The notes beneath the pieces were generated by a model, which was not told the origin of the DNA, searched no databases, and saw only the letters and a list, made by a program, of their open reading frames with translations. A stretch of 64,000 bases of DNA. It comes from Hydrogenovibrio halophilus DSM 15072 (lineage in GTDB: Bacteria; Pseudomonadota; Gammaproteobacteria; Thiomicrospirales; Thiomicrospiraceae). The position numbers and the translations under genes are program-made. The stretch covers positions 1,619,164 to 1,683,163 of the forward strand of contig NZ_KB913033.1 in the NCBI RefSeq assembly GCF_000384235.1, given 5' to 3'. This document shows, in pieces, positions 47,759-64,000 of this stretch (position 1 is the first letter of the stretch; each line of letters begins with the position of its first letter).

Positions 47759-50571
47759 ATCAGTCAGTCAAACGGCCCGATCTGACTCTGGAGGGGCAGA
47801 AACTGTATTTGCTCAGCCCGGATTGTACCGGCTCGGATCTGTTGCACACAGAACGCTTGCGGTCTCTGTGTCATGCCTTGGCGGCCAGACAGATTGAACC
47901 GGTGGTGATCACGCGTTTTGATGAACTGGCGGCCATCTGGCACCAATCGGAGCCGCCGGCCATGCTGGTGTTTGATGCCTGCGAGGATACACGGTGGCGT
48001 TTGTATGACTGGTTGACTCAGGTTTCGGACACATTGTCTCAGCGTACCTCTCTGGTGTGGATGGAAACGATTGATCGACTTGATGCGCGTCTGGAACTGT
48101 ACCAGCAGGGGGTGTGCGAGGTGCTCGACCCCGGTCAACCCGTGCAATGGCTGGTGGAAAAGCTGGCAGAAAGGCTGATGTTGCAACAGACGGACCCTTA
48201 CCGGGCCTTGCTACTGGACGACAGTGATGTGGCGTTGCAGATTCAGACGGCGTTGTTGGAAGAGGCCGGGTTTGTGGTGGTGGGCCACAGCGATCCGCAT
48301 CAGGCGTTTGCGGAACTGAGCGGGTTTGAACCGGATGTGCTGGTACTGGATTTGTACATGCCCGACGTTTCCGGTCAGGCGTTTGCCTGGGCGGTCAGGC
48401 AGGGTCGTACCGACGCCGAATTGCCCATTGTGTTTGTGTCTGGGGAAGACGCGTTTTCGCATCAGTTGTCCGCGTTACAGCAGGGTGGGGACGATTTTCT
48501 GGTCAAGCCGGTCAATCCGCACGCATTTGTGGAAACCGTGCGCCTGCGCGCGCATCGGGCCCGCCAGTATCGCTATCTGTCGGAAAACATTCGCCATCGG
48601 CTTTATGAACAGCAACGCCTCAATGATGCGCTGGACCATCATGCCATTGTCAGTGTGGCCGATCGGGCCGGACGCATCACCCAGGTCAATGACCGTTTCT
48701 GTCAGATCAGCGGTTATCGCCGTGAAGAATTGCTGGGGCATACCCATCGACTGATCAAATCCGACCGCCACCCGCCCGAATTTTTCAGGACACTCTGGCG
48801 CACCATCGCTTCGGGAAAAGTCTGGCAGGGCGAAGTCTGCAATCTGAGCAAAAGGGGGGAGGAATACTGGGTTTATTCTACCATCACCCCGTTTCTGGAT
48901 GAGACGGGCAAAATTTATCAGTATGTGTCGATCCGAACCGACATGACCCATGTCAAGGCGATTGAGCAGGAGCTGCAAAACCGGGTCTGGGAATTGAACG
49001 AGCGGGTCAAAGAAAACCGTTGTCTGAACCAAGTGATGCAGACGTTGGCCGATGACACCCTGGAAGAATCGACGATGCTGCAGCAGGTTGTGGCGCAAAT
49101 GCCAGCAGGATGGCGCTTTCCCGAGTTGACTCAGGTCAGGTTGACGCTTGGGGACCGCATCTGGCAGAGCCACGACTTTGTTGAAACCGACGGTTGCCGG
49201 GAGGCCACCTTGTCGGTGGGCGAACGCGAGGGCCATTTGCAGGTATGTGTGCAGGCTCAAGACGATGAAGCGTGCGATTCCAGTGCCCGTTTTTTGGCGG
49301 AAGAAGAAACGTTGTTGTCACAGATTGCGCTGCAGGTCAGTCTGGCTCTGGGACGGCGGGAGGATCAGATCCGGTTGCTGCAGACCAAATTGCAGGCGGA
49401 AGAGGCCAACCAGGCCAAGTCGGAATTTTTGTCGTCCATGAGCCATGAATTGCGCACGCCGCTGAATGCGATCATCGGGTTTGCCCAGTTGCTGGCCTCA
49501 CAGAAGTTGCCTGCGCCAGTCCCGGCGCAGGTGCGGACGATTGAGCGCAGTGCCAACCATCTGCTGCAGTTGATCAATGATGTGCTAGCCTTTGCCAAAC
49601 TGGAAAGCGGCAAGGCCGAATGCCAGCGGCAACCGGTTTCGGTGGCGCCAATTCTGTCGGAAATCATGGCCATTGTGGAATCGGATGCCATGCACCATGA
49701 GATTCGACTGGAGATGGCGGATATGGCCTCTGCGCCGGTCATTCTGGCCGACCCTCTCAGACTGAAACAGGTGCTGTTGAATCTGATGTCCAATGCGATC
49801 AAATACAACCGCCAGGGAGGCAGGGTGTCGTTGGACTGGCATCAAAGTCATCGCGAAGACATCCCTTGCTGGTGTCTGAACATCGCCGATACCGGCGTGG
49901 GCATGACCCAAAACCAGTTGGCACGATTGTTTGAACCCTTTGACCGGCTGGGGTATGAAACATCCGAGATTGAGGGCAGCGGCATTGGTCTGAGCATCAG
50001 CAAGGATCTGGTTGAGCTGATGGGAGGCTGGCTTGAGGTGGAAAGCGTGCCGGATGAAGGCAGTGAGTTTTGCCTGTGCCTGCCTCTGGCGGAAAACGAT
50101 GCAACCCAGGCGTCAACGGGTATAAACACCGACATCGACGCTTCGGCGAAATCGAACCCGCTTGCCAGCCGCGAAATAAAACTGCTGGACATTGTGGACC
50201 GTCCCCAGGCCATGGCGCTGACCGCCTCTGTGGTGGAACCCATGCCGCAGGTGACGCTGAAAATTGCGCCGTCGCTGAAAAACGGTCTGGAGCAGATTTC
50301 CGCCTGGCTGCCCGATATGATTCTGCTGGATGTGCCCCTGGCCGAAAAGCAGGACGGCCAGGCGCTGACGGCGTTGCGGGATCAGCTGAAAGGCCGCCCC
50401 GTGCCGGTTTACGCCATGACCGAGGAGGTCACCGGACAACAGATTGAACAGCTTGAACAGGCCGGGTTTGATGGTGTTTTGACCAGGCCTGGTGACGCAT
50501 CGGTTTTGCAGGCTCTGATTGAGCAACGACAACAACAATTGATTGAAAGTGAGAATGACAATGAAAGCTGA
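47755..50571 (+). CDS. soluble receiver-PAS-GAF-like histidine kinase with C-terminal pseudo-receiver
   Basis: A 938-aa cytoplasmic kinase. The first 140 residues look like a degenerate receiver (KLYLLSPDCTG). A true receiver with Asp199 (LVLDLYMPDVSG) and switch Lys in FLVKPVNP follows. Then come PAS (DRFCQISGYRREELLGHTH), a GAF-like segment, HisKA with His564, HATPase (NLMSNAIKY, ADTGVGM) and a second degenerate receiver (MILLDVPLAE). With no membrane segment and an N-terminal receiver, it probably takes phosphate from a neighbour and acts in the middle of a relay. The GTG start overlaps the previous stop. Confidence 0.88.
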   Translation: MNQSVKRPDLTLEGQKLYLLSPDCTGSDLLHTERLRSLCHALAARQIEPVVITRFDELAAIWHQSEPPAMLVFDACEDTRWRLYDWLTQVSDTLSQRTSLVWMETIDRLDARLELYQQGVCEVLDPGQPVQWLVEKLAERLMLQQTDPYRALLLDDSDVALQIQTALLEEAGFVVVGHSDPHQAFAELSGFEPDVLVLDLYMPDVSGQAFAWAVRQGRTDAELPIVFVSGEDAFSHQLSALQQGGDDFLVKPVNPHAFVETVRLRAHRARQYRYLSENIRHRLYEQQRLNDALDHHAIVSVADRAGRITQVNDRFCQISGYRREELLGHTHRLIKSDRHPPEFFRTLWRTIASGKVWQGEVCNLSKRGEEYWVYSTITPFLDETGKIYQYVSIRTDMTHVKAIEQELQNRVWELNERVKENRCLNQVMQTLADDTLEESTMLQQVVAQMPAGWRFPELTQVRLTLGDRIWQSHDFVETDGCREATLSVGEREGHLQVCVQAQDDEACDSSARFLAEEETLLSQIALQVSLALGRREDQIRLLQTKLQAEEANQAKSEFLSSMSHELRTPLNAIIGFAQLLASQKLPAPVPAQVRTIERSANHLLQLINDVLAFAKLESGKAECQRQPVSVAPILSEIMAIVESDAMHHEIRLEMADMASAPVILADPLRLKQVLLNLMSNAIKYNRQGGRVSLDWHQSHREDIPCWCLNIADTGVGMTQNQLARLFEPFDRLGYETSEIEGSGIGLSISKDLVELMGGWLEVESVPDEGSEFCLCLPLAENDATQASTGINTDIDASAKSNPLASREIKLLDIVDRPQAMALTASVVEPMPQVTLKIAPSLKNGLEQISAWLPDMILLDVPLAEKQDGQALTALRDQLKGRPVPVYAMTEEVTGQQIEQLEQAGFDGVLTRPGDASVLQALIEQRQQQLIESENDNES
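50482..50493. repeat. iterated palindrome ACCAGGCCTGGT, copy 13
   Basis: Exact copy in the C-terminal pseudo-receiver of the soluble kinase, read in the Thr-Arg-Pro-Gly frame. Confidence 0.9.
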
Positions 50572-52465
50572 TGCCATGATCCGCTGGGTAGAGCGGTTGT
50601 CGCCCTTGATTGCGGTGTTTCTGATTCTGGGGATTTCCGTGGTTTTCTGGCTGCATTATGTGCAGACGGAGCAACGTTCGCATCGCATTGCCGTGGAAGA
50701 CGCGTCCAATTTTTCCCATTCGGTTGCTCAGTACCGCAATTTTTACGCCACCCAGATCATTCCGGCTCTGGATCAGTATGACGTGCCGGTCACGCACGAT
50801 TATGCGATCGAAGACGGCAGCATTCCGCTGCCGGCCACCTTTGCCATTGATTTTGGTGACAAGCTGTCGGAAGAATCGCAGTACAGGGTCCGTCTCTACA
50901 GCGACCAACCTTTTGCCTGGCGGGAAAACGGGGGCATTCGGGATGCGTTTCAAAAAGACGCGATGGACTATCTGCGCGACCACCCGGCTGAAAGCTACAG
51001 CCGCTATGAAGTGATCGACGAGCAGAAGGTGCTGCGGTTTGCGGTGGCCGATGTGTTTAAAGACCAGGCCTGTGTCAGCTGTCACAACAGCTATCCGGGC
51101 ACCCCCAGAACCGATTGGGTGCTGGGCGATGTGCGCGGGGTGCTGGAAGTGCAGCGTCCGGTGTCGTCTCTGCAGGCGGTGAGCAATCAGTCGGCCTGGG
51201 TCACCTTTGGGGCCATGTTGCTGATGGCGCTGACGGCCACACTGATTCTGTCTCTGGTGCTGCGACGGATGAAACAGGCCCTGGCCACATCGCGCCAGCA
51301 ACAGAAAGCCTTGTCGCAAGCGCGGGATGAAGCCGAAAGGGCCAACCAGGCCAAATCCGATTTTCTTTCGGCCATGAGCCATGAGTTGCGCACCCCACTG
51401 AATTCGATCATCGGCTTTTCGCAGTTGCTGGAACTGGAAGATCTGAGCGCGGATCAGAAAAACCAGATCGGCATCATTCATGGCAGTGGCAAGCATTTGC
51501 TGCAACTGATTGACGATGTGCTGGCGTTCGCCAAACTGGAAAGCGGTCAGCTTCGAATCCAGATCGAAGAAGTCAACGTCAAGTCCGTGATTCAAGAGGT
51601 GCTGACCCTGACGCAGCAGGAGCGTGATGCGAGGGGGATCGAACTGGTATTTGAACCGGTCCGGTCCGAAGAATATCTGAATGTGGATCGCCTGCGATTG
51701 AAACAGGTGGTCCTGAACCTGATGAGCAACGCGATCAAATACAACCGCGAAGGCGGGCAGATTCGATTGAGTTGTCGAACGCTGACGCAAGAGGGTCGAC
51801 CCTACTGGGCGATGACCATCGCGGATACGGGAGAAGGCATTGCGCCGGACAAACTGGAGCAGTTGTTTGAACCCTTCAACCGGCTGGGATATGAAAATTC
51901 GGACATTGAGGGCACCGGCATTGGGTTGAGCATTACCAAAGATCTGGTGGAAACCATGGAAGGCTCGATTGAGGTCGAAAGCCAAGTGGGCGTTGGGACG
52001 ACATTTTCCATTGCGTTTCCACTGGCCCGGGAAACGGCCCGGACCGGGTCCTGTGATGCGTCCACTGAAGCCTCCGCTCAGGAGTCGATGGCCAGTTGTG
52101 TTTATGCCGCAACCGACCCTCAGGCTCTGCAGGCGGTGTCGCAATGGGCCGAAACCGCTGGCGCGCAGCTGGCGTTGCGCATTGCCCCGACCCGGAACAA
52201 TCTTCTGGATCAGCTGGCTCAGCGTCCGCCTGATGCGGTGATGCTGGATGTGGCTTTTGTGCTGGCTCAGCCGGATGCTCAGCATTTTTTGACTCAGTTG
52301 AACGAGCGCTTGACGACGCAACCGGTGCTGTTTCTGTATCAAACCCGGGAACAGGCCGATTTTTGCCAGGCCTGGTTGTCGTATCAGCCCGCCTGGGCGT
52401 GTCGGGAGTTTGAAGCCGAGGCGGTGAGCGAATTCTGGCAGGCTCATTTGTTGAATGACATCTGA
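50561..52465 (+). CDS. heme c-sensor histidine kinase (Tll0287/DUF3365-like) with pseudo-receiver
   Basis: A 634-aa membrane kinase. Helix 1 lies at about residues 14-34. The periplasmic domain resembles the Tll0287/DUF3365 heme-sensor fold and carries CVSCH (Cys171, Cys174, His175), a covalent c-type heme attachment motif. Helix 2 is at about 207-230. HisKA with His274 ([12 protein letters not shown]), HATPase (NLMSNAIKY, ADTGEGI) and a C-terminal receiver-like domain (AVMLDVAFV) follow. It probably senses redox state, oxygen or NO. ATG 50561 is chosen; ATG 50555 is possible. It overlaps the gene before it and its stop lies 17 bases before the next start. Confidence 0.88.
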   Translation: MKADAMIRWVERLSPLIAVFLILGISVVFWLHYVQTEQRSHRIAVEDASNFSHSVAQYRNFYATQIIPALDQYDVPVTHDYAIEDGSIPLPATFAIDFGDKLSEESQYRVRLYSDQPFAWRENGGIRDAFQKDAMDYLRDHPAESYSRYEVIDEQKVLRFAVADVFKDQACVSCHNSYPGTPRTDWVLGDVRGVLEVQRPVSSLQAVSNQSAWVTFGAMLLMALTATLILSLVLRRMKQALATSRQQQKALSQARDEAERANQAKSDFLSAMSHELRTPLNSIIGFSQLLELEDLSADQKNQIGIIHGSGKHLLQLIDDVLAFAKLESGQLRIQIEEVNVKSVIQEVLTLTQQERDARGIELVFEPVRSEEYLNVDRLRLKQVVLNLMSNAIKYNREGGQIRLSCRTLTQEGRPYWAMTIADTGEGIAPDKLEQLFEPFNRLGYENSDIEGTGIGLSITKDLVETMEGSIEVESQVGVGTTFSIAFPLARETARTGSCDASTEASAQESMASCVYAATDPQALQAVSQWAETAGAQLALRIAPTRNNLLDQLAQRPPDAVMLDVAFVLAQPDAQHFLTQLNERLTTQPVLFLYQTREQADFCQAWLSYQPAWACREFEAEAVSEFWQAHLLNDI

Positions 52466-52481
52466 TGGTGGAGTGAAAATC

Positions 52482-53300
52482 GTGCGTTGGATGATGGTTA
52501 TAGGAATGGGGTGGCTTCTGGCCGGTCAGGTCTGGGCGCAAGACCGCCTGATACTGGGTGTGGTGCCGCAACAAAGCCCGTTAAAGCTTTATCAGAACTG
52601 GCAACCGGTCGCGGCGCATCTGTCAGGCGTGACCGGTCGGGAAGTGGTGTTTGAAACCGAAAAGTCGATTGCCGAGTTCGAAACCCAGTTGGCCAAGGGG
52701 CGCTACGATATGGCTTACATGAACCCTTATCATTATGTCGTGGCGCACCAACAACAGGGGTATCTGGCCAGGTTCCGCCGGGAAGGCGATATTCGGGGCA
52801 TACTGGTGTCAACCCATTCCACGTTTGAACCGCAGAAACTTCTGGCCAGACCGGTGCTGTTTCCTTCGCCCAATGCGTTTGCCGCGACTCTGGTGATCAA
52901 ATACGAAATGCTGGAAAACTTTGATCTGGCGATTGAGGCCAAAGGGCTGGTCCGTTATGTGAATTCGCATGACTCGGTTTACAAAGGCGTGGCCAGAGGC
53001 GTGGGCGACTATGGCGGGGGCGTGGAACGAACGTTTCGTGCTTTTGATGCGGACGAAGACAAAGGCAAACTGCAGGTGGTGTATCGCACGGCCCCTTATC
53101 CCAGCCATCCGATTGCGTTTCATCCCCGCCTGACGCCTGCCACGGCCAGCCAGTTGACGCAGGCCTGGCAAACCCTGCCGCAGAAGGTGATGGATCCATT
53201 GGGGTTTGCGCGTCTGATGCCAGTGGAGGATGACGATTATGCGCCGATTCGTGCCTTGCGGGCGCGTCTGTCGGTGAAACCTGTGAGCGAAGGAAAGTAA
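52482..53300 (+). CDS. PhnD-like periplasmic binding protein
   Basis: A 272-aa secreted protein with a signal peptide ([16 protein letters not shown]), then a phosphate/phosphite/phosphonate-type binding fold: [51 protein letters not shown] 52482 is chosen because GGAG (52470-52473) is 8 bases upstream and the signal peptide follows; ATG 52455 has no ribosome-binding site. No ABC partner is present. Its stop overlaps the start of the next kinase (TAATG), so it is likely to be a ligand-presenting subunit for that kinase. It is the stand-alone counterpart of the fused domain in the kinase at 41294. Confidence 0.87.
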
Positions 53301-55537
53301 TGTCGTTTCGTTACAAATTCCTGCTGACGTTCATTCTCGCCGAAGTGCTGTTTGTGTCCGCCATCGTGGCTTTGAATTTTGCGGCCCTGAAAGAGACCTC
53401 AGGCAAACTGGTTTCAGACCAGTTGACCTCTTCCGGTCAATTGATGGCCGAGTCGGCCAAGGTGCCGTTGCTGGTCAGGGATCTGGCCACATTGGACAAC
53501 GCCCTTGAAACCTTCATCGGACTGAAAAACATTGTCGCCGCCGGGGTTTGGGATGAGGAAGGGCGACCGTTGTCGATAAAAGGCAACAAGGCATTGCTTG
53601 ATCAGTTCTCCACCCTGATGCGTTCACACAACCTGAATCGGGAAAAAACCTGGCTGGCGCTGTCTGCGCCTGACATGCAGGCATCGCAATCGCTGCTGGG
53701 ACACCAGGTGGATGTGACCATGGAAGAACACCGGTTGGGGCAGGTTCGCTTTGTGTACGATGCCTCCTCACTGGTGGCCATTACCGAACGCAACCGCAAC
53801 TGGACGCTGAGTGTGTTTGCGATTGAAATGCTGTTGGCCACCATTGTGGCGTTGTGGCTTGGGTGGCGGATCACCCGTTCCCTGAGCACGTTGACCGGTA
53901 CGGCGATGAAGGTGTCCCGGCATCACGATCTGAGCGAAAGCGATTTTCCCAGAAGCAATGATGAAATCGGACAGCTTTCCGAGGCCATGAAAATCATGGC
54001 CGACCAAATTGCCGAGCGCACGCAAAAGCTGCAGCAAGCGCAAAGTTCGGCGGAAGCGGCGAATCGGGCCAAATCCGAGTTTGTGGCCAATATGAGCCAT
54101 GAAATCCGCACGCCATTGAACGGCATTATCGGCTTGAGCCAGTTGCCCAAACAATCGGTTTCAAGAGAGGAAATGGCCGGTCGACTGGAAAAGGTCTGTG
54201 CTTCCGGTCAGCTGCTGTTGACCATCATCAATGACATTCTGGATTTTTCCAAAATCGAAGCGGGCAAGATGACGGTGTCGCCGCAACCGACCGATTTGAA
54301 AGCGTTGGTAAAGGACTTGTCGGGTTTGTTTGAGACATTGGCGCAGAGCAAGGGGCTGGCGCTGAAAGTGGAGCTGGAAGAACCGCTTTCACCGTGTGTG
54401 ACCCTGGACGCCATGCGTTTGAAGCAGGTGTTGAGCAATCTGATCAATAATGCGATTAAGTTTACCGAGCAGGGTGGCATTGCGATCACAGTGCGAGGGC
54501 ACAAAGCCGATGATCACCAGGCCTGGTTGTTTTTTGAGGTCGCAGACACAGGCATCGGCATGACCGAAGCGCAACAGACACAGCTGTTTCAGGCGTTCAG
54601 TCAGGCGGATACGAGCATCACCCGTGAATATGGCGGCACGGGTCTGGGATTGGTGATCAGCCAGAAACTGGTGCGACTGATGGGGGGCGATGCGATTGCC
54701 CTGGACAGCCAGCCCGGAAAAGGCTCACGGTTTTCGTTTGCTCTGCCTTATGCGGCCTGTTCGGAATCCGAAACACTCGATACGGACTCAGACACATCGC
54801 CTTCGAAGAGCATTGAACCGGAACAACAGCGCTTTCAGGGGCAGGTGCTGCTGGTGGAGGACAATCTGATCAATCAGGAAGTGGCCAAAGCCATGCTCAA
54901 GGCGTTGGGATTGTCGCCAGTGGTGGTCAGTCGTGGGGCCGAAGCGGTTGAGGTGTGTCAGAAGCAGTCGTTTGATCTGATTTTAATGGACATTCAGATG
55001 CCGGGCATGGACGGCTATGAAACCACGCGCCGCATTCGTCAGAGACATCCGGCGGTCCCGATCATTGCGCTGACGGCAGCGGCACTGATCGAAGACCGCG
55101 ACAAAGCACTGGAAGCCGGGATGAATGAGCATTTGCCCAAACCCATTGATTTTCCCAGTCTGTCGCACTGTCTGAGTCAGTACCTGCCTTGTCAGAACGA
55201 AGCGGGTCAGGTGGGTCAGAAAGGGTTGTTGCTCTGGGCCGCCGATCCGAACTGGCTCAAACCCTGGTTGCATCGGTTCAAAGCGCATTCGCGCGTGTAT
55301 GTGGCCCCCGATCGCCAAAAGGTGAAAGCACTTCTCGACAAAGAAGCCAACATTCACCTGGTCGCGATCGTCGACCCGATACCGGAACAGGAGATTCTGC
55401 TGTTGCGAGAACGTCATCCCCGGATCGATTGGCTGATTCTGATGTCGGACAACGACGATGCCGAAGTGGACTGCGAACAAAACGGACTGAGCCGTCTGAC
55501 CCCGAAAGCGCTTTTGGATGCCATGCGACAGTCATGA
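53300..55537 (+). CDS. hybrid histidine kinase coupled to the PhnD-like protein
   Basis: A 745-aa protein. Helix 1 lies at about residues 7-28, a periplasmic domain of about 140 residues follows, helix 2 is at about 170-192, then HAMP. HisKA has His267 ([11 protein letters not shown]), HATPase has [16 protein letters not shown] and GTGLGL, and the receiver has Asp564 ([13 protein letters not shown]). A C-terminal tail of about 120 residues again looks like a degenerate receiver ([11 protein letters not shown] start). One base of overlap with the binding-protein gene indicates coupling. It is last kinase of the array, 100 bases before the HTH-receiver gene. An exact palindrome lies before the G1 box. 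Confidence 0.91.
54516..54527. repeat. iterated palindrome ACCAGGCCTGGT, copy 14
   Basis: Exact copy in the ATPase domain of the last kinase, read as His-Gln-Ala-Trp, at the position homologous to copy 12. Confidence 0.9.
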
Positions 55538-55637
55538 CGAATAGGGTGATGGATGCGCTTTTTCTGTTACTTTTATGCGTTTGGTTTCTTTTGTTGCGTT
55601 CTTTTGTCGTAAAATAGACCAAAACGAATCATGGTAA

Positions 55638-56261
55638 ATGGCCAAGGTGAATAAACGCATTATGACGGAAACAACCAGAATGACTTCGGACGACTTTATC
55701 ACAACCACCAAAGCCTGCGAGCTACTGGGTGTGTCCAAAACCGTGATCAAACGGATGGTGGATCAGGGAGAGATTGATTCATGGCGAACCACAGGTGGCC
55801 ACAGGCGTTTGAGCAAAGCGTCGGTGATGGCGCATCTGGAAGCCATCCGCGGGACTTCCAACACGGTGGTCCCGGCGGATCACACGGTTCGCGTGATGAT
55901 TCTGGATGACGATCCCGTGACCCAGTCCATCATTGCCAACTATCTGGATCGGTTTTTTGCTGACGTGGATTACGAACAGGCCATGGATGGGTATGAAGGG
56001 CTGATCAAAGCCGGTCAGGGCAATTTTGATCTGATTCTGGTGGATCTGCACATGCCGAAAATGGACGGCTATGCCGCCATTGATGCACTGCAATCTCTGG
56101 ACACCACTCAGCATACCACCATCGTGGTCATCACCGCCGATGAGCGCAAAGACGTGGATATGGATCGGTTGGGTGATGAAAAAGTGGTGCTGACCAAGCC
56201 GCTGGCGCTGGATGTCATCGGCCAGTTTGTGCGTTATGAAAAGGCGATTAAGTCAGTCTGA
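55638..56261 (+). CDS. HTH (excisionase/MerR-type)-receiver protein
   Basis: A 207-aa protein with an N-terminal DNA-binding domain of the excisionase/HTH_17 type (TTTKACELLGVSKTVIKRMV, then IDSWRTTGGHRRLS). A C-terminal receiver with phospho-acceptor Asp136 (LILVDLHMPKMDG), acidic residues in MILDDDPV and switch Lys in VVLTKPLA follows. The order is reversed from usual response regulators. As the first gene after the kinases and the only DNA-binding regulator nearby, it is the natural end point of their relay. ATG 55662 is an alternative start; no strong ribosome-binding site decides. Confidence 0.88.
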   Translation: MAKVNKRIMTETTRMTSDDFITTTKACELLGVSKTVIKRMVDQGEIDSWRTTGGHRRLSKASVMAHLEAIRGTSNTVVPADHTVRVMILDDDPVTQSIIANYLDRFFADVDYEQAMDGYEGLIKAGQGNFDLILVDLHMPKMDGYAAIDALQSLDTTQHTTIVVITADERKDVDMDRLGDEKVVLTKPLALDVIGQFVRYEKAIKSV

Positions 56262-56602: not shown

Positions 56603-57326
56603 GTGATCGGTTCCTTTTGTATTTGTCTCCGGGGCACCGATTCCCGAGAGCTATTTTTTGAGCGTTCTTCGTGTCATGAGCAAAGAACGCCTGCTTGATA
56701 TGGCCCAATTGTAAGGAGTGCAACCCTGGGCTTTCGTTCGTTCTACCTTTTCGATACGAACTGAAGGGCATTATGTTCGATTGATTCAAAAAAACAAATC
56801 CGATCTTTTTTCCCTCCAATAAAAAAAATTCATTTTAGTGTTCACTGATGTTTGTGTCTTATCGAGTGAAGGGCGTACCAGACAGATGCATAACTCAGCC
56901 GGGCAGATCCGATTTTTCCATCCTTTCCTTTATCGGGATAATGAGTCAAAGAATTTGTATTTGCAGAACCTGAATGCCTGTTTTTTAAAAACAGGGTATT
57001 TAGCTTATGAGGTATCGCCTTTTTATGATTGACTTGTTGCGGTTATTGAGATTAAAATTTATTATGTATTTTCCTTGTTTTTTCAATTTTTGAATGACTG
57101 CCGATACCATGAGCATTATTACGAGAAGAGATTGTTCGTCCCAAAGTTGAACAAAATCTGTCTCAGGAAGACCTTTTCCGTTTTGATTTTTTCGTTTTGA
57201 TAAAGCGCAAGGTTGTTCATACATTGCCGAATCTGAAAAATAGGTCCTGTCTGGTGAATACTTGTGTTTTTTGTTCATGGTTGTTTGGTGGATAATAGGG
57301 TATTTAAGAATATTAAAAGGATGGTT
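56603..57326. other. AT-rich stretch without a convincing gene
   Basis: About 720 bases visibly poorer in GC than the flanks. A plus frame at 56838-57032 and a minus frame at 57000-57278 (92 aa, basic, no ribosome-binding site) are open, but neither has a recognisable domain or a supported start. It lies between the HTH-receiver gene with its decayed repeat and a small basic protein, and may be an old insertion or a boundary of transferred DNA. Confidence 0.5.
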
Positions 57327-57608
57327 ATGAAAAAAGCACTCGAAAAATGGATGCAGCAAAATCCGGAGAAATCCATGGGCCGTGGCCGAAAAAGCCGTTT
57401 TACCGAGTTTGAAGACGAATTGGTTGCGCTGTTGAAAGCCGGTTACACCACGCAAAAAGTGGCGCAGTATCTGAACGAGGTCGAAAAAGTGCCTTTCAAG
57501 AAAAAAGACGGCAAATATGTGGTCGCCGCTCTGTCAAACTATTTGCGCGATCTGTCGCAAAAACACGGCATTGTCCGCAAACGAGGTCGTGCTGCGATTT
57601 CCAGCTGA
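57327..57608 (+). CDS. small basic protein, possible HTH DNA-binding
   Basis: A 93-aa protein, rich in Lys and Arg. ATG 57327 is preceded by AAAAGG with 6-base spacing; ATG 57321 is too close. The core reads as two or three helices (FEDELVALLKAGYTTQKVAQYLNE), with GYTTQKVAQYL resembling a helix-turn-helix, flanked by basic RGRKSR and VRKRGR ends. This suggests nucleic-acid binding. I do not recognise the family. A strong terminator follows, so it is monocistronic. It stands beside an AT-rich stretch, which may indicate acquisition by transfer. Confidence 0.7.
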   Translation: MKKALEKWMQQNPEKSMGRGRKSRFTEFEDELVALLKAGYTTQKVAQYLNEVEKVPFKKKDGKYVVAALSNYLRDLSQKHGIVRKRGRAAISS

Positions 57609-57688: not shown

Positions 57689-57736
57689 AGCCTCTCAGAG
57701 AATTTCTTCTATGGCATTCTCTGAGAGGCTTTTTGC
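57689..57736 (+). terminator. strong intrinsic terminator
   Basis: A perfect 15-bp stem, AGCCTCTCAGAGAAT / ATTCTCTGAGAGGCT with a 12-base loop, then TTTTTGC. It separates the small basic protein from the phytochrome gene. Confidence 0.92.
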
Positions 57737-57773
57737 TTTCTATGAGTTGCACAACTCGTTTTGATTTAGGCAA

Positions 57774-57801
57774 TTGTCCCGTTGTGTAATATGCTTATAA
57801 T
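57774..57801 (+). promoter_or_regulatory. promoter of the bacteriophytochrome gene
   Basis: TTGTCC, a 16-base spacer and TATAAT. The predicted transcript starts near 57808, so the in-frame ATGs at 57791 and 57800 would not be transcribed. This supports ATG 57830. Confidence 0.6.
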
Positions 57802-57829: not shown

Positions 57830-59323
57830 ATGAAAGACAACGCTGTGTCCGATCCTTCCGGATTGCATCCTTGTGAAAAAGAAAAATTGCCTTGGTCAGG
57901 CCAGATTCAGCCATTCGGTGCCTTGATCGGGGTGGACAAAACCACCTTGAGCGTGACCCATGCCAGTGCCAATACGGCAGAGGTGTTGGGTCGGGCTCCC
58001 GAAACACTGTTTGGCCTGTCGGTGGAGGCCCTGTCATCCCAGCTGGCTGTGATTCTGGAGGAGATGGCATTTGAACCCACCGATCAGGTGTTTGAACGCC
58101 AGGTGGCCCTGGATGCCCATCCTTACTGGTTGCGGATCAGCCAGGATGCCCGTCATTACGTCATCGACATTCAATCCTACGACAAATCCGTTCAGGTGGC
58201 AGGCGCTTCGCCGGAACTCACACAAAAGCTGGCCTATTCTCCCGATACCGAAGAAGGCGCGCAATCCCTGTTCGATGCACTGGTAACGCTGGTTCGGCAA
58301 TTGACCGGTTATGACCGGGTGATGTTGTATCAGTTTCAACCGGATTGGAGCGGTCAGGTGGTGGCGGAAATCCGACGCTCGCGGCTTGGCAGTTACCTGG
58401 ATTTGCGCTTTCCAGCCTCGGACATCCCCAGAATTGCCCGGGATCTGTATGTGAAAAATGCCTCACGCACCATTTGCGATGCAAAAATGGACCCGGTTCC
58501 GATCTTGTCGGCCACGCAACAACCCATTGACCTGACCCATTCCGATACCCGCAGTGTGTCTCCTGTGCATTTGCAGTACCTTCAGAATATGGGGGTCTCG
58601 GCTTCCTTTTCCCTGCCGATTGTGATCCATCAATCCCTCTGGGGGCTGGTGGCCTGCCATCATTACACCCCCAAGCATCTGTTGCCCCAGGTCAAAAAAC
58701 AGGCGGTCACCCAGGTAGACCGATTCCGCAGGGCACTGCACGGTTATCTGGCCAAACGCAAAATGCAGCATTATGATCAGCGTGAGGCGGTTCTCAATCA
58801 ATTGGCCAATCGTCTGGGCCGTCTGTCCGACCGCCAGGCACTGCTTGACCAGTCGGCACCGGAAGTACTGGGGCTGTTGCATGCGCAGGGGTTTGCCTGG
58901 GTGGATGACGGTGCAATGCTGACAGCGGGCATTGTGCCCGACGCCTCGGCATTGAAAAAACTGGATGAATGGTTTCAGCAGGGCTGTGATGATTCGGATG
59001 TGTTTGTGAGCGACAGCCTGAAACGCGATGCTTTCGAAGACACAGGCCTTAAGGATGTGGCCGGGATGCTCGCAGTGCGGGTATGGAAGCAGCATCAATG
59101 GCAGCGTTGTTACTGGTTTAAGGAAGAAGTCGTGCGTGATCTGGTCTGGGCGGGAAATCCGGACAAACCGATCATGGAAAACGCAGACGTGGCCTCTTTG
59201 TCTCCCCGACGGTCATTTGACCGATGGGTGGAAACCCGCCGGGATCACAGTGCGCCTTTTGAGGATTTCGATGCGCTGACAGCCAGGCGGTTTATTCATG
59301 TGCTTTCCGAACGCGTGGGTTAA
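57830..59323 (+). CDS. bacteriophytochrome photosensory module without output domain
   Basis: A 497-aa protein covering only PAS, GAF and PHY domains. Near the start LHPCEKEKL has Cys15 at the biliverdin-attachment position of bacteriophytochromes, followed by SGQIQPFGALI. The GAF domain has the hallmark PASDIPRIARDLYV and the pocket block VSPVHLQYLQNMGV with the conserved His. The PHY tongue has PRRSFDRW, matching PRxSF. No kinase, GGDEF or other output follows, so signalling would need a partner protein. It is separated by 155 bases from a CheB-CheR fusion. No heme oxygenase is in the window. Confidence 0.92.
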   Translation: MKDNAVSDPSGLHPCEKEKLPWSGQIQPFGALIGVDKTTLSVTHASANTAEVLGRAPETLFGLSVEALSSQLAVILEEMAFEPTDQVFERQVALDAHPYWLRISQDARHYVIDIQSYDKSVQVAGASPELTQKLAYSPDTEEGAQSLFDALVTLVRQLTGYDRVMLYQFQPDWSGQVVAEIRRSRLGSYLDLRFPASDIPRIARDLYVKNASRTICDAKMDPVPILSATQQPIDLTHSDTRSVSPVHLQYLQNMGVSASFSLPIVIHQSLWGLVACHHYTPKHLLPQVKKQAVTQVDRFRRALHGYLAKRKMQHYDQREAVLNQLANRLGRLSDRQALLDQSAPEVLGLLHAQGFAWVDDGAMLTAGIVPDASALKKLDEWFQQGCDDSDVFVSDSLKRDAFEDTGLKDVAGMLAVRVWKQHQWQRCYWFKEEVVRDLVWAGNPDKPIMENADVASLSPRRSFDRWVETRRDHSAPFEDFDALTARRFIHVLSERVG

Positions 59324-59350
59324 GGCGAGCTAAGGCGGGCCAAGGCGGGT
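59321..59350. repeat. three tandem 10-bp units
   Basis: TAAGGCGAGC, TAAGGCGGGC and CAAGGCGGGT follow one another. The phytochrome stop codon TAA is the first three bases of unit 1. Confidence 0.7.
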
Positions 59351-59478
59351 AAAAAATTTGGTAGCGATTGAAAAAGACGTTACGATGGGGTTGTGTGTAT
59401 GGCATTTGTACAGATGTTGTAATGATTGAAGGTTTGTCGGGATCGCCAGTGTGACTGGGATCGTTTGAAGGATTAGAA

Positions 59479-62337
59479 ATGACAGAACAACCGTATTGGT
59501 TATTTTTGGGGGCGTCAGCCGGTGGGCTGGAAGCGCTCAAACAGTTTTTATTGCACTTTCGCGCGTATGACCGCTGTTGTGTGGTCATCGCCCAGCATCT
59601 GGACCCCAAGCACCCGACCATTCTCAAGGATCTGTTGGAGCGGGTGACCGAAACGCCGATTGAAATGGTCGACAAGCCGGTTCGTCCCCAGGCAGGGCGG
59701 GTGTATATCATTTCTCCCGGGTTCAATGCACAAGTACACGATCACACCATTGAACTGACCCCCGCCGCTGCTGTGGGCCCCAAACCTTCCATTGATGTGT
59801 TGTTGCACTCGGCCGCTGAAGCCTTGCAGGAGCAGGCCGTCGTGGGCATTCTGTCCGGCACTGGGTCGGATGGTGCACGTGGAGCCATGGCGATCAAATC
59901 CAATAACGGCCTGGTGTTTGCCCAGAATGAAAGCACGGCCAGATACGCCGGTATGCCTCTGGCGGCAGTGGAAGCCGGTGCTGTCGATAAAACCGGCTCC
60001 CCGCAGGAATTGGCGGAGGACATTGCCGCGTTTCTGGAAACGGGCCACAAGGATTATCAATCGGTACGTCCCGATCCGAAAACCGATCTGGAGAAGATTT
60101 TTCAGCGTATTTATGACGTCACCGGTCATGATTTCAGTGGCTACAAGCTCAAGACCATTCGCCGGAGGCTGGCCAGACGCATGGCGGTCAATCAATTGAG
60201 CGCGGTAAAGGAGTATGTGCACCTGATTGAAACGTCGGAAGACGAAGTGCAGCACCTGTTCAAAGACATGATGATTTCGGTGACTGCGTTTTTCCGGGAC
60301 CGGGAGGCCTTCCAGGCATTGGAGACCCTGCTGGAAAACGCCATCCGTGAGCAGGAGGAAGACCGTCCCTGGCGAATCTGGGTGCCGGGGTGTGCCAATG
60401 GTGAAGAGCCGTATTCGATTGCGATTGTGATGCATCGGATCAAGACCCGCCTCAACCGCGATATCGAATACCAGATTTTTGCTTCCGACATTGACGAGTA
60501 CGCCCTGTCTCAAGCCCGAAAAGGGGTGTTCTCCGAAGCACAGGTCATGGATATGGATCCGGAAGTTCTGGATAATTATTTTATTCGGCGCGACCGCACC
60601 TATCAGCTTTCCAAAAAAGTGCGGGATCGGGTGGTGTTTGCCCGGCAGAACCTGATTATGGAACCGCCTTTTTCCCGTCTCGACCTGATCAGTTGTCGCA
60701 ATCTGATGATTTATTTTTCCACCGAATTGCAACGTCAGGTGCTGCAAACGTTTCATTTTGCTCTCAATCCGCAGGGATTGCTGTTTATGGGCAAATCCGA
60801 ATCAGCGTCCAGCACGGCTCCGCAACTGTTTGAAACCCTGGACAAAAAAGCCCAGTTGTATCAGCGCAAAGCGACCAACCTTTCCCAGCGCAGTGACCGC
60901 ATTCAGAGCGCCAATGCGATCAAGCGTCAGGAACGCCCCACGGCCGTGACCGATACCGACCCGGAGGAAAAACAGACCATTGCCCACAAACTGGAGCAGA
61001 CCCTGCTCAATGACATGGTGCCGGTGGCAATTGTGGTGGACAAGTCGGGTCAGATTCTGCACATTCGGGGCGATGTGAACCGATATTTGAATTTTCCTCA
61101 GGGTCGGATCGATACCAATATGCTGACCCTGGCCCGGGATGACATCAAGGTGGATTTGCGTGCGCTGATGGAAAAAGCCAAAAAAGACGGTGAAGCCTCC
61201 TCACAAGCGTTGTTTTACAAGGATTCTGATCAGGACATGGTCTTGTTCCTGTCTATCAAGCGCATGCGTTTTTCCGAGTCGCACAACAATCTTTATGTGG
61301 TGGCGTTTATTCCTACCGAACTGAGTTTGCCCTTTGTGGAACCGGGTGGGGGGCTGACGTCGGAGCAACATGCTTCCAAAAAACAGTTGCAGAAAGAAGT
61401 GGCTGTGTTCAAGGAACGCTTGCAGGCTTCGGTGGAAGACCTGGAGACCACCAACGAAGAACTGCAGTCCACCAATGAAGAACTGCAATCCTCCAACGAA
61501 GAGCTCCAGTCTTCGAACGAGGAGTTGCAAACCGCGAACGAAGAATTGCAGTCGACCAACGAAGAGCTTTCCACGGTCAACGAAGAACTCGAAGTCAAAA
61601 CCCACGAGCTTGAGCAGGTCAATACCGATCTGCAAAGCATGCTTGAGAATATGAGCGAACACATTCTGTTGCTTGACAGCCGTTTGCGTCTGTTGCGGTT
61701 CACCCGACCGGCGAGCGAACTGTTTTCGCTGGATTCGTCCCATCTGCATCAGACTGTGACCACATTGGGGCTGGAGTTGGATGTGCCCAATCTGCGTCAG
61801 GAGCTGCTGAGTGTGCTGGAAAACGACCGAACAAACCAGCTTCGAGTGCGCGTGCTGAGCGATGTGTTCTGTTTGCGTCTGGTGCCGCATCAGTCGCCGG
61901 AGCGAGGCACCAGAGGGGTACTGATGTTCTTTGACCGTCCCGGGCAGTCAATGGATCAGAATGGCGATCAGGCCGAACAGATGCTGCGGCTTTTGGGAGA
62001 ACAGCTGGGGTGTGGTCTGGTGGTGATTGACCAGAATGGGGTCATGACCTATGCCAATCAACAGATCAGGACGTATCTGGGGTATGACTGGGACGACATG
62101 GCGCTTCAGAATGTGAAGATGCTGATGCCGGACCCCTATCGCAGTCACCATGACAGTTACCTGGAAGATTACCAGAAAGGCGAGAATCAGGGGCTGATTG
62201 GCCAGTGGCGGGATGTGACCGCCCAGAAAAAGGACGGTCGCCGCCGCTTGCTGAAACTGAGAACCGAAGAAATCCGCCTGCATAACGAGTGCTATTATCT
62301 CGGCTTTTTGAAACCGACGGAGGGCGCACATGAATGA
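59479..62337 (+). CDS. CheB-CheR-coiled coil-PAS fusion protein
   Basis: A 952-aa soluble protein joining both adaptation enzymes. The CheB methylesterase domain (residues 1-185; LGASAGGLEAL with Ser13, AQHLDPKH, GTGSDGARG) lacks its usual receiver. The CheR methyltransferase follows (about 195-475; KTIRRRLARRM, WVPGCANGEEPYSIAI, SCRNLMIYF). A PAS-like domain (VVDKSGQILHI) comes next, then an iterated coiled coil of NEELQ(S/T)-type repeats (about 655-715), and two further PAS domains at the C-terminus. Such fusions occur with hybrid kinases and phytochromes in soil and aquatic bacteria. The targets could be the two chemoreceptors or a kinase. AAGGA is 8 bases before the ATG. Confidence 0.93.
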   Translation: MTEQPYWLFLGASAGGLEALKQFLLHFRAYDRCCVVIAQHLDPKHPTILKDLLERVTETPIEMVDKPVRPQAGRVYIISPGFNAQVHDHTIELTPAAAVGPKPSIDVLLHSAAEALQEQAVVGILSGTGSDGARGAMAIKSNNGLVFAQNESTARYAGMPLAAVEAGAVDKTGSPQELAEDIAAFLETGHKDYQSVRPDPKTDLEKIFQRIYDVTGHDFSGYKLKTIRRRLARRMAVNQLSAVKEYVHLIETSEDEVQHLFKDMMISVTAFFRDREAFQALETLLENAIREQEEDRPWRIWVPGCANGEEPYSIAIVMHRIKTRLNRDIEYQIFASDIDEYALSQARKGVFSEAQVMDMDPEVLDNYFIRRDRTYQLSKKVRDRVVFARQNLIMEPPFSRLDLISCRNLMIYFSTELQRQVLQTFHFALNPQGLLFMGKSESASSTAPQLFETLDKKAQLYQRKATNLSQRSDRIQSANAIKRQERPTAVTDTDPEEKQTIAHKLEQTLLNDMVPVAIVVDKSGQILHIRGDVNRYLNFPQGRIDTNMLTLARDDIKVDLRALMEKAKKDGEASSQALFYKDSDQDMVLFLSIKRMRFSESHNNLYVVAFIPTELSLPFVEPGGGLTSEQHASKKQLQKEVAVFKERLQASVEDLETTNEELQSTNEELQSSNEELQSSNEELQTANEELQSTNEELSTVNEELEVKTHELEQVNTDLQSMLENMSEHILLLDSRLRLLRFTRPASELFSLDSSHLHQTVTTLGLELDVPNLRQELLSVLENDRTNQLRVRVLSDVFCLRLVPHQSPERGTRGVLMFFDRPGQSMDQNGDQAEQMLRLLGEQLGCGLVVIDQNGVMTYANQQIRTYLGYDWDDMALQNVKMLMPDPYRSHHDSYLEDYQKGENQGLIGQWRDVTAQKKDGRRRLLKLRTEEIRLHNECYYLGFLKPTEGAHE
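61440..61600 (+). repeat. NEELQ-type coding repeats
   Basis: About seven near-identical heptad units, each reading NEELQ(S/T)(T/S/A) or close, form a long coiled coil inside the CheB-CheR fusion. At DNA level they differ mainly at third positions, so the repeat is old or under codon drift rather than freshly amplified. Confidence 0.8.
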
Positions 62338-64000
62338 TTCCCGTCGTGTCAGCTGGATTCTGAATGACATCGAAGCCTTTCGTGATGAAAACACGCGTCT
62401 GGTGGATGCGCTCAATGCCTGTGAAAGCGAGCGCAGCCTGTTGGGGCAGCAGGTCAGTGAACTGGAAAACGAATTTGAATTGATCGAGCGCGAACACCGT
62501 GCTTCGCTGCACAACTCGGATCTGTATCAGAAGATGTTTGACATCAGTCCGGTGCCCAAACTCCTGCTCACGCCCAATATGGACATCATGGTGGCCAATC
62601 CCGCGGCGAGAAAGTTTCTGAACCGGGAAATCGACGAATCGGTCAAATCCTTTCGCAAATATTTGCTCAAGGACGACAGTGTGGCGTTCATCAAGGCGTT
62701 TCGCCATTGGCAGTTGTCTGAGCGCTTTCCGCCCGAGCAGGTGTTTACCCTCAAAAGCGGTCAGTCGTTTACCGTGGAAATTCAATCATTGGACAATGTG
62801 TTTGAGACCACGAAATCTCCTGTGTTCATGGTGTTGTATCCGGTGGATTTCACCCGCATTACCGACCAGACGATGCGCCTGTCGCAACTGGCATTGCAAC
62901 AGTTGCGCGAAGCGGTGATGATCACCGACAGCCAAAGCCGCATCATCAGTGTCAATCAGGCCTTTTGTGAAATCACCGGTTATGAGAGTGAAGAGGTGCT
63001 GGGGCACAACCCGTCTGTTTTGAAATCCGGGCGTCAGTCAGACCATTTTTATCAGGATTTGTGGCAGCATCTGCAGGAGCACGGCTGGTGGCATGGTGAA
63101 ATCTGGAACAAACGCAAAAACGGCGATGTGTTTCCCGAATGGCTGCAAATCACCAAGCTTTGGGACAGTTATTCCAACCAGACCTATTATGTGGCCACGT
63201 TTTCGGACATTTCACCCAGAGTGGAAACGCAGAAACGCCTGGACCGTCTGGCCTTTTTTGACAGCCTGACCAATCTGCCCAACCGTTATTCGCTGCACAA
63301 TCATCTCGACAACCTTTTGCTGCGCAAGCGTCAGAAAGACTCCGAGCGGGCTTTTGCCGTGTTGTTTCTGGACCTGGACAAGTTCAAGGAGGTCAACGAT
63401 GCCTATGGTCACAGCGAGGGCGACCGGGTTCTGATTGAGGCGACACAGCGGATCACCGTCAATTTACGGGACGACGATTACGCGGCGCGTATTGGCGGCG
63501 ATGAGTTTGTGGTGGTATTGACCGATCTGGAAGGGGTCGATGTACCGGAGCTTTGTCAGCGGCTGATTACGGCTTTGAATGCGCCGTTCAACATCGGTCC
63601 ACGACAGCACTTTCTGAGCGCTTCCATCGGCATTGCGTGTTACCCGGAACACGGCTTTGAAACCGAAGATCTGCTGCGCCGGGCCGATGCGGCCATGTAT
63701 GGGGCCAAGTCCCTCGGGCGCAATCGCTATCATTGGTTTGATATGGCGCTGGAAGAAAAAACCGCGTCCAATCACGACATGCTTCAGTTGTTGCGTACGG
63801 CCATTGAACAGCCATTAAACGTGATCGAAATGCATTACCAGCCCATTTTCTGCAAAGGTCATCAGTGGCAGGAAGTGGAAGCATTGGTGCGTCTGAAAAA
63901 CGAGCAGGGACTGGTGATGCCGGGGGCGTTCATTGAATTGGCCGAGCATCACGGTTTGATTCAGCCTCTGGGGCTGGCGCTGTTTGAACGCATCTGTGCC
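62330..64000 (+). CDS. PAS-GGDEF-EAL protein, 3' end outside the window
   Basis: Open from ATG 62330 to the window edge (557 codons), overlapping the CheB-CheR stop by 8 bases. Residues 1-60 form a coiled coil. PAS domains start near residues 65 (YQKMFDISPVPKLLL) and 195 (AVMITDSQSRIISVN). A GGDEF domain follows (LAFFDSLTNLPNR, IGGDEFVVV), and the start of an EAL domain is seen (EALVRLKNEQGLVMPG). It has no membrane segment. With a probable active GGDEF and an EAL still incomplete, direction of c-di-GMP turnover cannot be judged. Genomic coupling suggests it is the c-di-GMP output of the phytochrome/CheB-CheR unit. Confidence 0.9.
   Translation, partial: MNDSRRVSWILNDIEAFRDENTRLVDALNACESERSLLGQQVSELENEFELIEREHRASLHNSDLYQKMFDISPVPKLLLTPNMDIMVANPAARKFLNREIDESVKSFRKYLLKDDSVAFIKAFRHWQLSERFPPEQVFTLKSGQSFTVEIQSLDNVFETTKSPVFMVLYPVDFTRITDQTMRLSQLALQQLREAVMITDSQSRIISVNQAFCEITGYESEEVLGHNPSVLKSGRQSDHFYQDLWQHLQEHGWWHGEIWNKRKNGDVFPEWLQITKLWDSYSNQTYYVATFSDISPRVETQKRLDRLAFFDSLTNLPNRYSLHNHLDNLLLRKRQKDSERAFAVLFLDLDKFKEVNDAYGHSEGDRVLIEATQRITVNLRDDDYAARIGGDEFVVVLTDLEGVDVPELCQRLITALNAPFNIGPRQHFLSASIGIACYPEHGFETEDLLRRADAAMYGAKSLGRNRYHWFDMALEEKTASNHDMLQLLRTAIEQPLNVIEMHYQPIFCKGHQWQEVEALVRLKNEQGLVMPGAFIELAEHHGLIQPLGLALFERICA

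Follow-up and report, generated by a model that had tools for sequence, protein, structure and literature searches.

An output-less bacteriophytochrome adjoining CheB-CheR-PAS and GGDEF-EAL genes: a probable light-signalling unit in Thiomicrospira and other Pseudomonadota

The DNA analysed here (the window) is a 64-kb stretch, C1:1619164-1683163, of the complete 2.36-Mb genome (G000) of a sulfur-oxidizing bacterium assigned to the Thiomicrospira genus group. Open reading frames and Pfam searches place three consecutive genes on its + strand, encoding a phytochrome, a CheB-CheR-PAS protein and a GGDEF-EAL protein, as an earlier note made from the sequence had described, and the three genes stand in identical order at the corresponding locus of the congener Thiomicrospira sp. 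WB1 (G008). The upstream gene is closed by an intrinsic-terminator-like inverted repeat (57690-57739, + strand), found in a direct reading of the sequence since its 12-nt loop exceeds the limit of the terminator scan; a 14-bp perfect stem (57690-57703 / 57716-57729) is followed by the T tract of TTTTTGCTTT. Immediately 5' of the phytochrome gene lies a sigma-70-like promoter, TTGTCC-16-TATAAT (57774-57801, + strand), called on consensus alone (10 of 12 matches). The phytochrome and CheB-CheR genes are spaced by 155 bp, in which the scan saw no + strand terminator-like site, and the two effector genes, which the earlier note had also reported to overlap, share 8 bp (59479-62337 and 62330-64519) in GCACATGAATGA. 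The layout of the three genes is consistent with a single transcription unit.

Two further features lie upstream. A cluster at 50543-56261, kept in WB1, encodes a Tll0287-like histidine kinase, a phosphonate-type binding protein, a HAMP hybrid kinase and a response regulator that carries an excisionase-type HTH N-terminally. At 57264-57608 is the gene of a 114-aa protein without a Pfam family, which is 84% identical in WB1 and thus better conserved than the adjoining phytochrome.

The first gene of the unit (57830-59323, + strand) encodes an output-less bacteriophytochrome of 497 aa with the architecture PAS-GAF-PHY, identified by Pfam, motifs, an AlphaFold2 model and Foldseek. Pfam domains are PAS_2, GAF (7e-16) and PHY (1e-32, residues 320-492), and the pocket motifs, whose residues are conserved in an alignment of the output-less clade members, comprise Cys15, PASDIP (195-200), RSVSPVH (241-247), the ACHHY histidine and the PRRSF tongue (459-463). 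The model (pLDDT 83.6, pTM 0.79) matches solved bacteriophytochrome photosensory modules (Foldseek, E 3e-43, TM about 0.8). These results agree with the earlier note, which had described a PAS-GAF-PHY module with Cys15, PASDIP and PRxSF ending after PHY; a C-terminal output domain (histidine kinase, GGDEF, PAS etc.) is absent. Because PHY terminates at residue 492 of 497, as it does at the end of the protein throughout the clade, WB1 included, the protein is, on its domain content, a photosensory module only and not a canonical BphP kinase; its score against the NCBIfam BphP equivalog is 233.8, below the cut-off of 1040. Frameshift or truncation is ruled out by the WB1 ortholog (71% identical) and all clade members, which end at the identical place. 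From its sequence we infer bilin binding and red/far-red photoconversion.

The second gene (59479-62337, + strand) encodes a protein of 952 aa arranged as CheB-CheR-PAS-coil-PAS-PAS, to which Pfam assigns CheB, CheR, PAS_10 and PAS, with matches to solved structures. The CheB methylesterase domain (59503-60024, + strand; Pfam and motif alignment) carries the catalytic-site motifs GASAGG, AQHL and SGTGSDG, and the CheR methyltransferase domain (60085-60846, + strand; Pfam, motifs and solved structures), all-alpha plus SAM-binding, carries GCANGEEPYS, ASDID and CRNLMIYF. Amino acids 630-724 (61366-61650, + strand) are predicted by AlphaFold2, with moderate confidence, to form a single long helix with seven x-x-E-E-L-x-x heptads; for the protein as a whole the prediction (pLDDT 64.6, pTM 0.31) is too weak to read domain packing. 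The C-terminal PAS (aa 835-945; 61981-62313, + strand), a feature absent from the earlier note's description, matches FixL (E 4e-14), and its His891 and Arg911 align with the heme-proximal His and distal Arg of FixL.

The third gene extends beyond the window, from 62330 through 64000 and onward to a true end at 64519 in window coordinates (+ strand), and was completed from the genome sequence. The CheB/CheR and GGDEF/EAL domains proposed earlier as the activities of the two effector genes are both present, and the run of the GGDEF-EAL gene past the window end is a correction to the earlier account. The resulting PAS-PAS-GGDEF-EAL protein of 729 aa has intact GGDEF, RxxD I-site, EAL and DDFGTG motifs (the I-site of the WB1 ortholog is KxxD), and is by these motifs predicted to act as a dual c-di-GMP enzyme.

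A phytochrome of this kind needs its chromophore, and no heme oxygenase was found within the 64-kb window, as the earlier note had said. Looking further, as that note had advised, we found by profile search exactly one heme oxygenase in the whole genome, of 210 aa (C1:1912894-1913496), 234 kb from the unit; its PF01126 score of 25.3 bits lies above the gathering cut-off of 23, and its proximal His21 is invariant, together with Gly127/131, across 12 homologs. A reading in which the genome has no chromophore source is thereby ruled out. The oxygenase gene lies directly 5' of a second phytochrome (L007 7894-11343, equivalent to C1:1912894-1916343), a PAS-GAF-PHY-PAS-GGDEF protein of 904 aa with the conserved Cys and its own GGDEF output. 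The syntenic locus of WB1 (L127 8354-9344) has no second phytochrome and retains the oxygenase, which is 58% identical. A role for the oxygenase in serving the output-less phytochrome would fit, because WB1 retains the enzyme though the only PHY match in its genome is the output-less phytochrome; the enzyme may also serve heme use in some other way. Among the 14 genomes that bear a unit (see below), 13 have a heme oxygenase, which in ten is encoded directly 3' of the phytochrome gene. These ten of 14 units resemble BphO-BphP operons, from which Thiomicrospira differs in having its sole heme oxygenase 234 kb away beside the second phytochrome.

We searched for PHY domains in four overlapping genome sets, 63 from the order, 369 from the class, 398 from the phylum and 151 from a different order, which amount to about 950 Pseudomonadota genomes; two further searches, made later, used a profile built from the output-less clade. 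All complete phytochromes with a length between about 480 and 580 aa were retrieved with about 8 kb flanks, as were 23 output-bearing phytochromes for comparison. CheB-CheR and GGDEF-EAL adjoin all 14 output-less phytochromes and none of the 23 output-bearing ones, a difference to which we attach no p-value because the comparison set is non-random and the cases share ancestry. Both effector parts accompany each of the first 13 cases, which include one (G803) whose phytochrome reads as two ORFs. The fourteenth (L170, G1035) came from the profile search after the pattern had been seen; its 519-aa phytochrome frame (566 bits with the clade profile) is overlapped by the gene of a 1503-aa CheB-CheR-GGDEF-EAL protein, with a heme oxygenase behind. 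Contig-edge fragments (G435 C3, G435 C6, G952 C85) were left out of the count, as was the short phytochrome of G424 (L028), whose PHY match is incomplete and which is followed, 54 nt downstream, by a GGDEF ORF; it was rejected as an output-less case because it looks like a disrupted phytochrome-GGDEF gene.

The units are spread over nine family codes (f1, f79, f136, f139, f146, f168, f171, f208 and f272). CheB-CheR and GGDEF-EAL form a single chain of about 1500 aa in ten of them and are separate ORFs in the two Thiomicrospira genomes, G207 and G435, the split in the last looking like a frameshift. The phytochrome gene mostly abuts or overlaps the effector gene (4-8 nt overlap in L100, L101, L102 and L105); it stands first in Thiomicrospira and behind the effector elsewhere. 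The unit is thus real and recurrent, and the conserved three-gene order anticipated in the earlier note holds for gene content; the order itself differs, and CheB-CheR and GGDEF-EAL are mostly fused. In favour of a functional link, some other phytochromes (L032, L117) combine the photosensory module and GGDEF-EAL within one chain; against it, a search for a single-chain fusion of phytochrome and CheB-CheR found none. Two loci have peculiarities of their own. In G803 (L105 8323-9809) the two phytochrome ORFs (PAS-GAF and PHY) overlap by 4 nt, a frameshift or a genuine split, and G894 (L109 8313-12955) has tandem phytochrome kinases, the second with the degraded pocket motifs PRSDIP, RSISRM and CWN.

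All 12 output-less phytochromes usable for a tree fall into one clade (branch support 100/99, 0 of 500 shuffles). Outside Thiomicrospira the CheB-CheR tree repeats the phytochrome subclades, including a matching split of the f168 members, and pairwise distances of phytochromes and CheB-CheR proteins are correlated (r 0.91 for 12 pairs and 0.97 for the 10 pairs without Thiomicrospira, permutation p 5e-5). Because of these matching subclades and correlated distances the partners appear to have travelled together; correlated divergence of this sort can arise through joint inheritance alone. As the identical partnership recurs in many unrelated bacteria, the comparison suggests that this output-less receptor lineage relies on a separate partner protein for its signalling. 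We therefore consider it probable, with some reserve, that the three genes constitute one light-signalling unit, in which the output-less phytochrome would act in trans on the effector and alter the c-di-GMP level.

Relatives that have the effector genes and no phytochrome weigh against this reading. In the tree the window CheB-CheR lies within a group of copies that are about 48-54% identical and come from ten genomes of its family without a phytochrome, and it is nearer to these than to the fused effectors. All ten keep CheB-CheR adjacent to GGDEF-EAL (or GGDEF), and two of them, G011 and G012, belong to the genus of the window and carry the pair at the syntenic position. Hence a restriction of CheB-CheR to the phytochrome genomes of the family is ruled out. 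Because these ten genomes, two of them congeneric and syntenic, keep the pair without any phytochrome, the pair can do without one and is predicted to have inputs other than light; in the family of the window the phytochrome was either repeatedly lost or gained beside a resident pair. In six phytochrome-less genomes the pair is followed on its 3' side by a protein of 190-207 aa without a Pfam family (L142 12559-13140; also L143, L144, L145, L146 and L149), which has a conserved YRCDSP and two CxxC motifs and may be an alternative partner. In G012 (L151) the CheB-CheR and GGDEF-EAL genes are both interrupted, by decay or assembly error.

Among 11 CheB-CheR proteins of the family, phytochrome-less genomes included, the proximal His of the FixL-like PAS is kept in nine and the distal Arg in ten, and the motif, looked for in the fused effectors, is absent there. 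We infer that oxygen or heme serves as an input in this bacterial family alone. The window domain keeps these two positions as in the heme-PAS oxygen sensors FixL and DosP, and differs in that its heme is predicted from sequence and its output would be CheB-CheR and the neighbouring GGDEF-EAL. The pair could then be primarily an oxygen sensor controlling c-di-GMP, with the Thiomicrospira phytochrome a neighbour that has a different target, such as another kinase or the second phytochrome. The occurrence of the pair without a phytochrome in ten relatives, the aligned His and Arg in nine of 11 proteins and the 155-bp gap before CheB-CheR all speak for such an arrangement. We nevertheless regard it as unlikely, given that all other phytochromes of the clade adjoin CheB-CheR-GGDEF-EAL, mostly overlapping or abutting it, that the gap is free of a + strand terminator-like site, and that oxygen sensing is compatible with light input. 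With a FixL-like heme PAS at the C terminus of the window CheB-CheR, this effector may be a point of convergence for light and oxygen.

The role of the CheB and CheR domains admits several readings. Paired glutamates in chemoreceptors undergo methylation, and EE heptads, which are common in CheB-CheR fusions generally, resemble them; the seven of the window protein have four to six counterparts in most fused effectors. By this analogy the EE-rich coil is a candidate methylation substrate, and self-methylation a hypothesis. CheB is usually activated by CheA through phosphorylation of a receiver domain; a Pfam search of the 952-aa protein for Response_reg gave no match, and because this domain is absent, control of the fused CheB by CheA in the usual way is unlikely. 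The same absence weakens the proposal that CheB-CheR acts on ordinary MCPs, which would make the unit a phototaxis adaptation module with GGDEF-EAL as a second branch to motility. Unit genomes lacking chemotaxis were sought as a means of discriminating the substrate, and none occurred among 13, all of which have CheW and many MCP genes as this proposal would have it; chemotaxis genes are so common that their presence discriminates little, the EE-rich coil is a nearer substrate in the same chain, and we judge the proposal improbable. Somewhat less doubtful, if still not favoured, is that CheB and CheR persist as structural relics and that the unit is simply a light-regulated GGDEF-EAL switch made of two proteins. 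Sensor fusions commonly contain CheB-CheR domains, and we know of none with a demonstrated methylation function; against their being relics, the CheB and CheR signature motifs are kept in all 13 aligned effectors, save that L103 and L104 have F in place of C at one position of CheR.

Under the light-signalling reading that we prefer, the phytochrome would bind biliverdin, sense red/far-red light and bind the effector in a way comparable to PapB on PapA, with PAS domains or the coiled coil as the probable contact site. The light state would shift the GGDEF/EAL balance and so change c-di-GMP synthesis versus hydrolysis, CheR and CheB would methylate and demethylate glutamates as adaptation, perhaps in the effector's own EE-rich coil, and in Thiomicrospira the FixL-like heme PAS would supply oxygen as a second input. 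A more far-reaching version, which we hold only tentatively and think rather doubtful, is that a distinct ancient phytochrome lineage serves as the dedicated photoreceptor subunit of a self-methylating CheB-CheR-GGDEF-EAL effector with chemoreceptor-like adaptation, the Thiomicrospira effector also reading oxygen via heme.

Accounts of bacterial phytochrome signalling usually place the output on the chain of the photosensor itself. PadC (e.g. of Idiomarina A28L) and BphG-type phytochrome-GGDEF-EAL proteins likewise link a photosensory module, of close fold, to c-di-GMP enzymes, and differ in having their output behind PHY on one chain, whereas here the proteins are separate and include CheB-CheR. 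CheB-CheR-PAS sensor fusions share with the window protein the presence of CheB, CheR, an EE-rich coil and PAS within one chain; the window protein is in addition linked (elsewhere fused) to GGDEF-EAL and has a phytochrome beside it. In principle the nearest described system is that of Rhodopseudomonas palustris, in which the stand-alone BLUF photosensor PapB governs the separate EAL protein PapA via complex formation (PMC8846402). There, too, a photosensor without an output domain is paired with a c-di-GMP enzyme on another protein, but the sensor is a blue-light flavin protein and the effector a solo EAL without CheB-CheR; for the window unit a red/far-red phytochrome is expected, and the pairing is known from gene linkage and correlated divergence. 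A search of the open-access literature found no description of a phytochrome paired with CheB-CheR/GGDEF-EAL. Phytochrome control of c-di-GMP is already known, and what would be new here is the placing of sensor and effector on separate proteins, CheB-CheR included.

If the output of this lineage is always a separate CheB-CheR/GGDEF-EAL effector, it would constitute an in-trans phytochrome route to c-di-GMP with built-in methylation enzymes, one that is directly testable in vitro and possibly useful for optogenetics. The unit also offers a handle on the role of the widespread CheB-CheR-PAS fusions, and it would mean that a sulfur oxidizer which does not photosynthesize senses red light, and perhaps oxygen as well.
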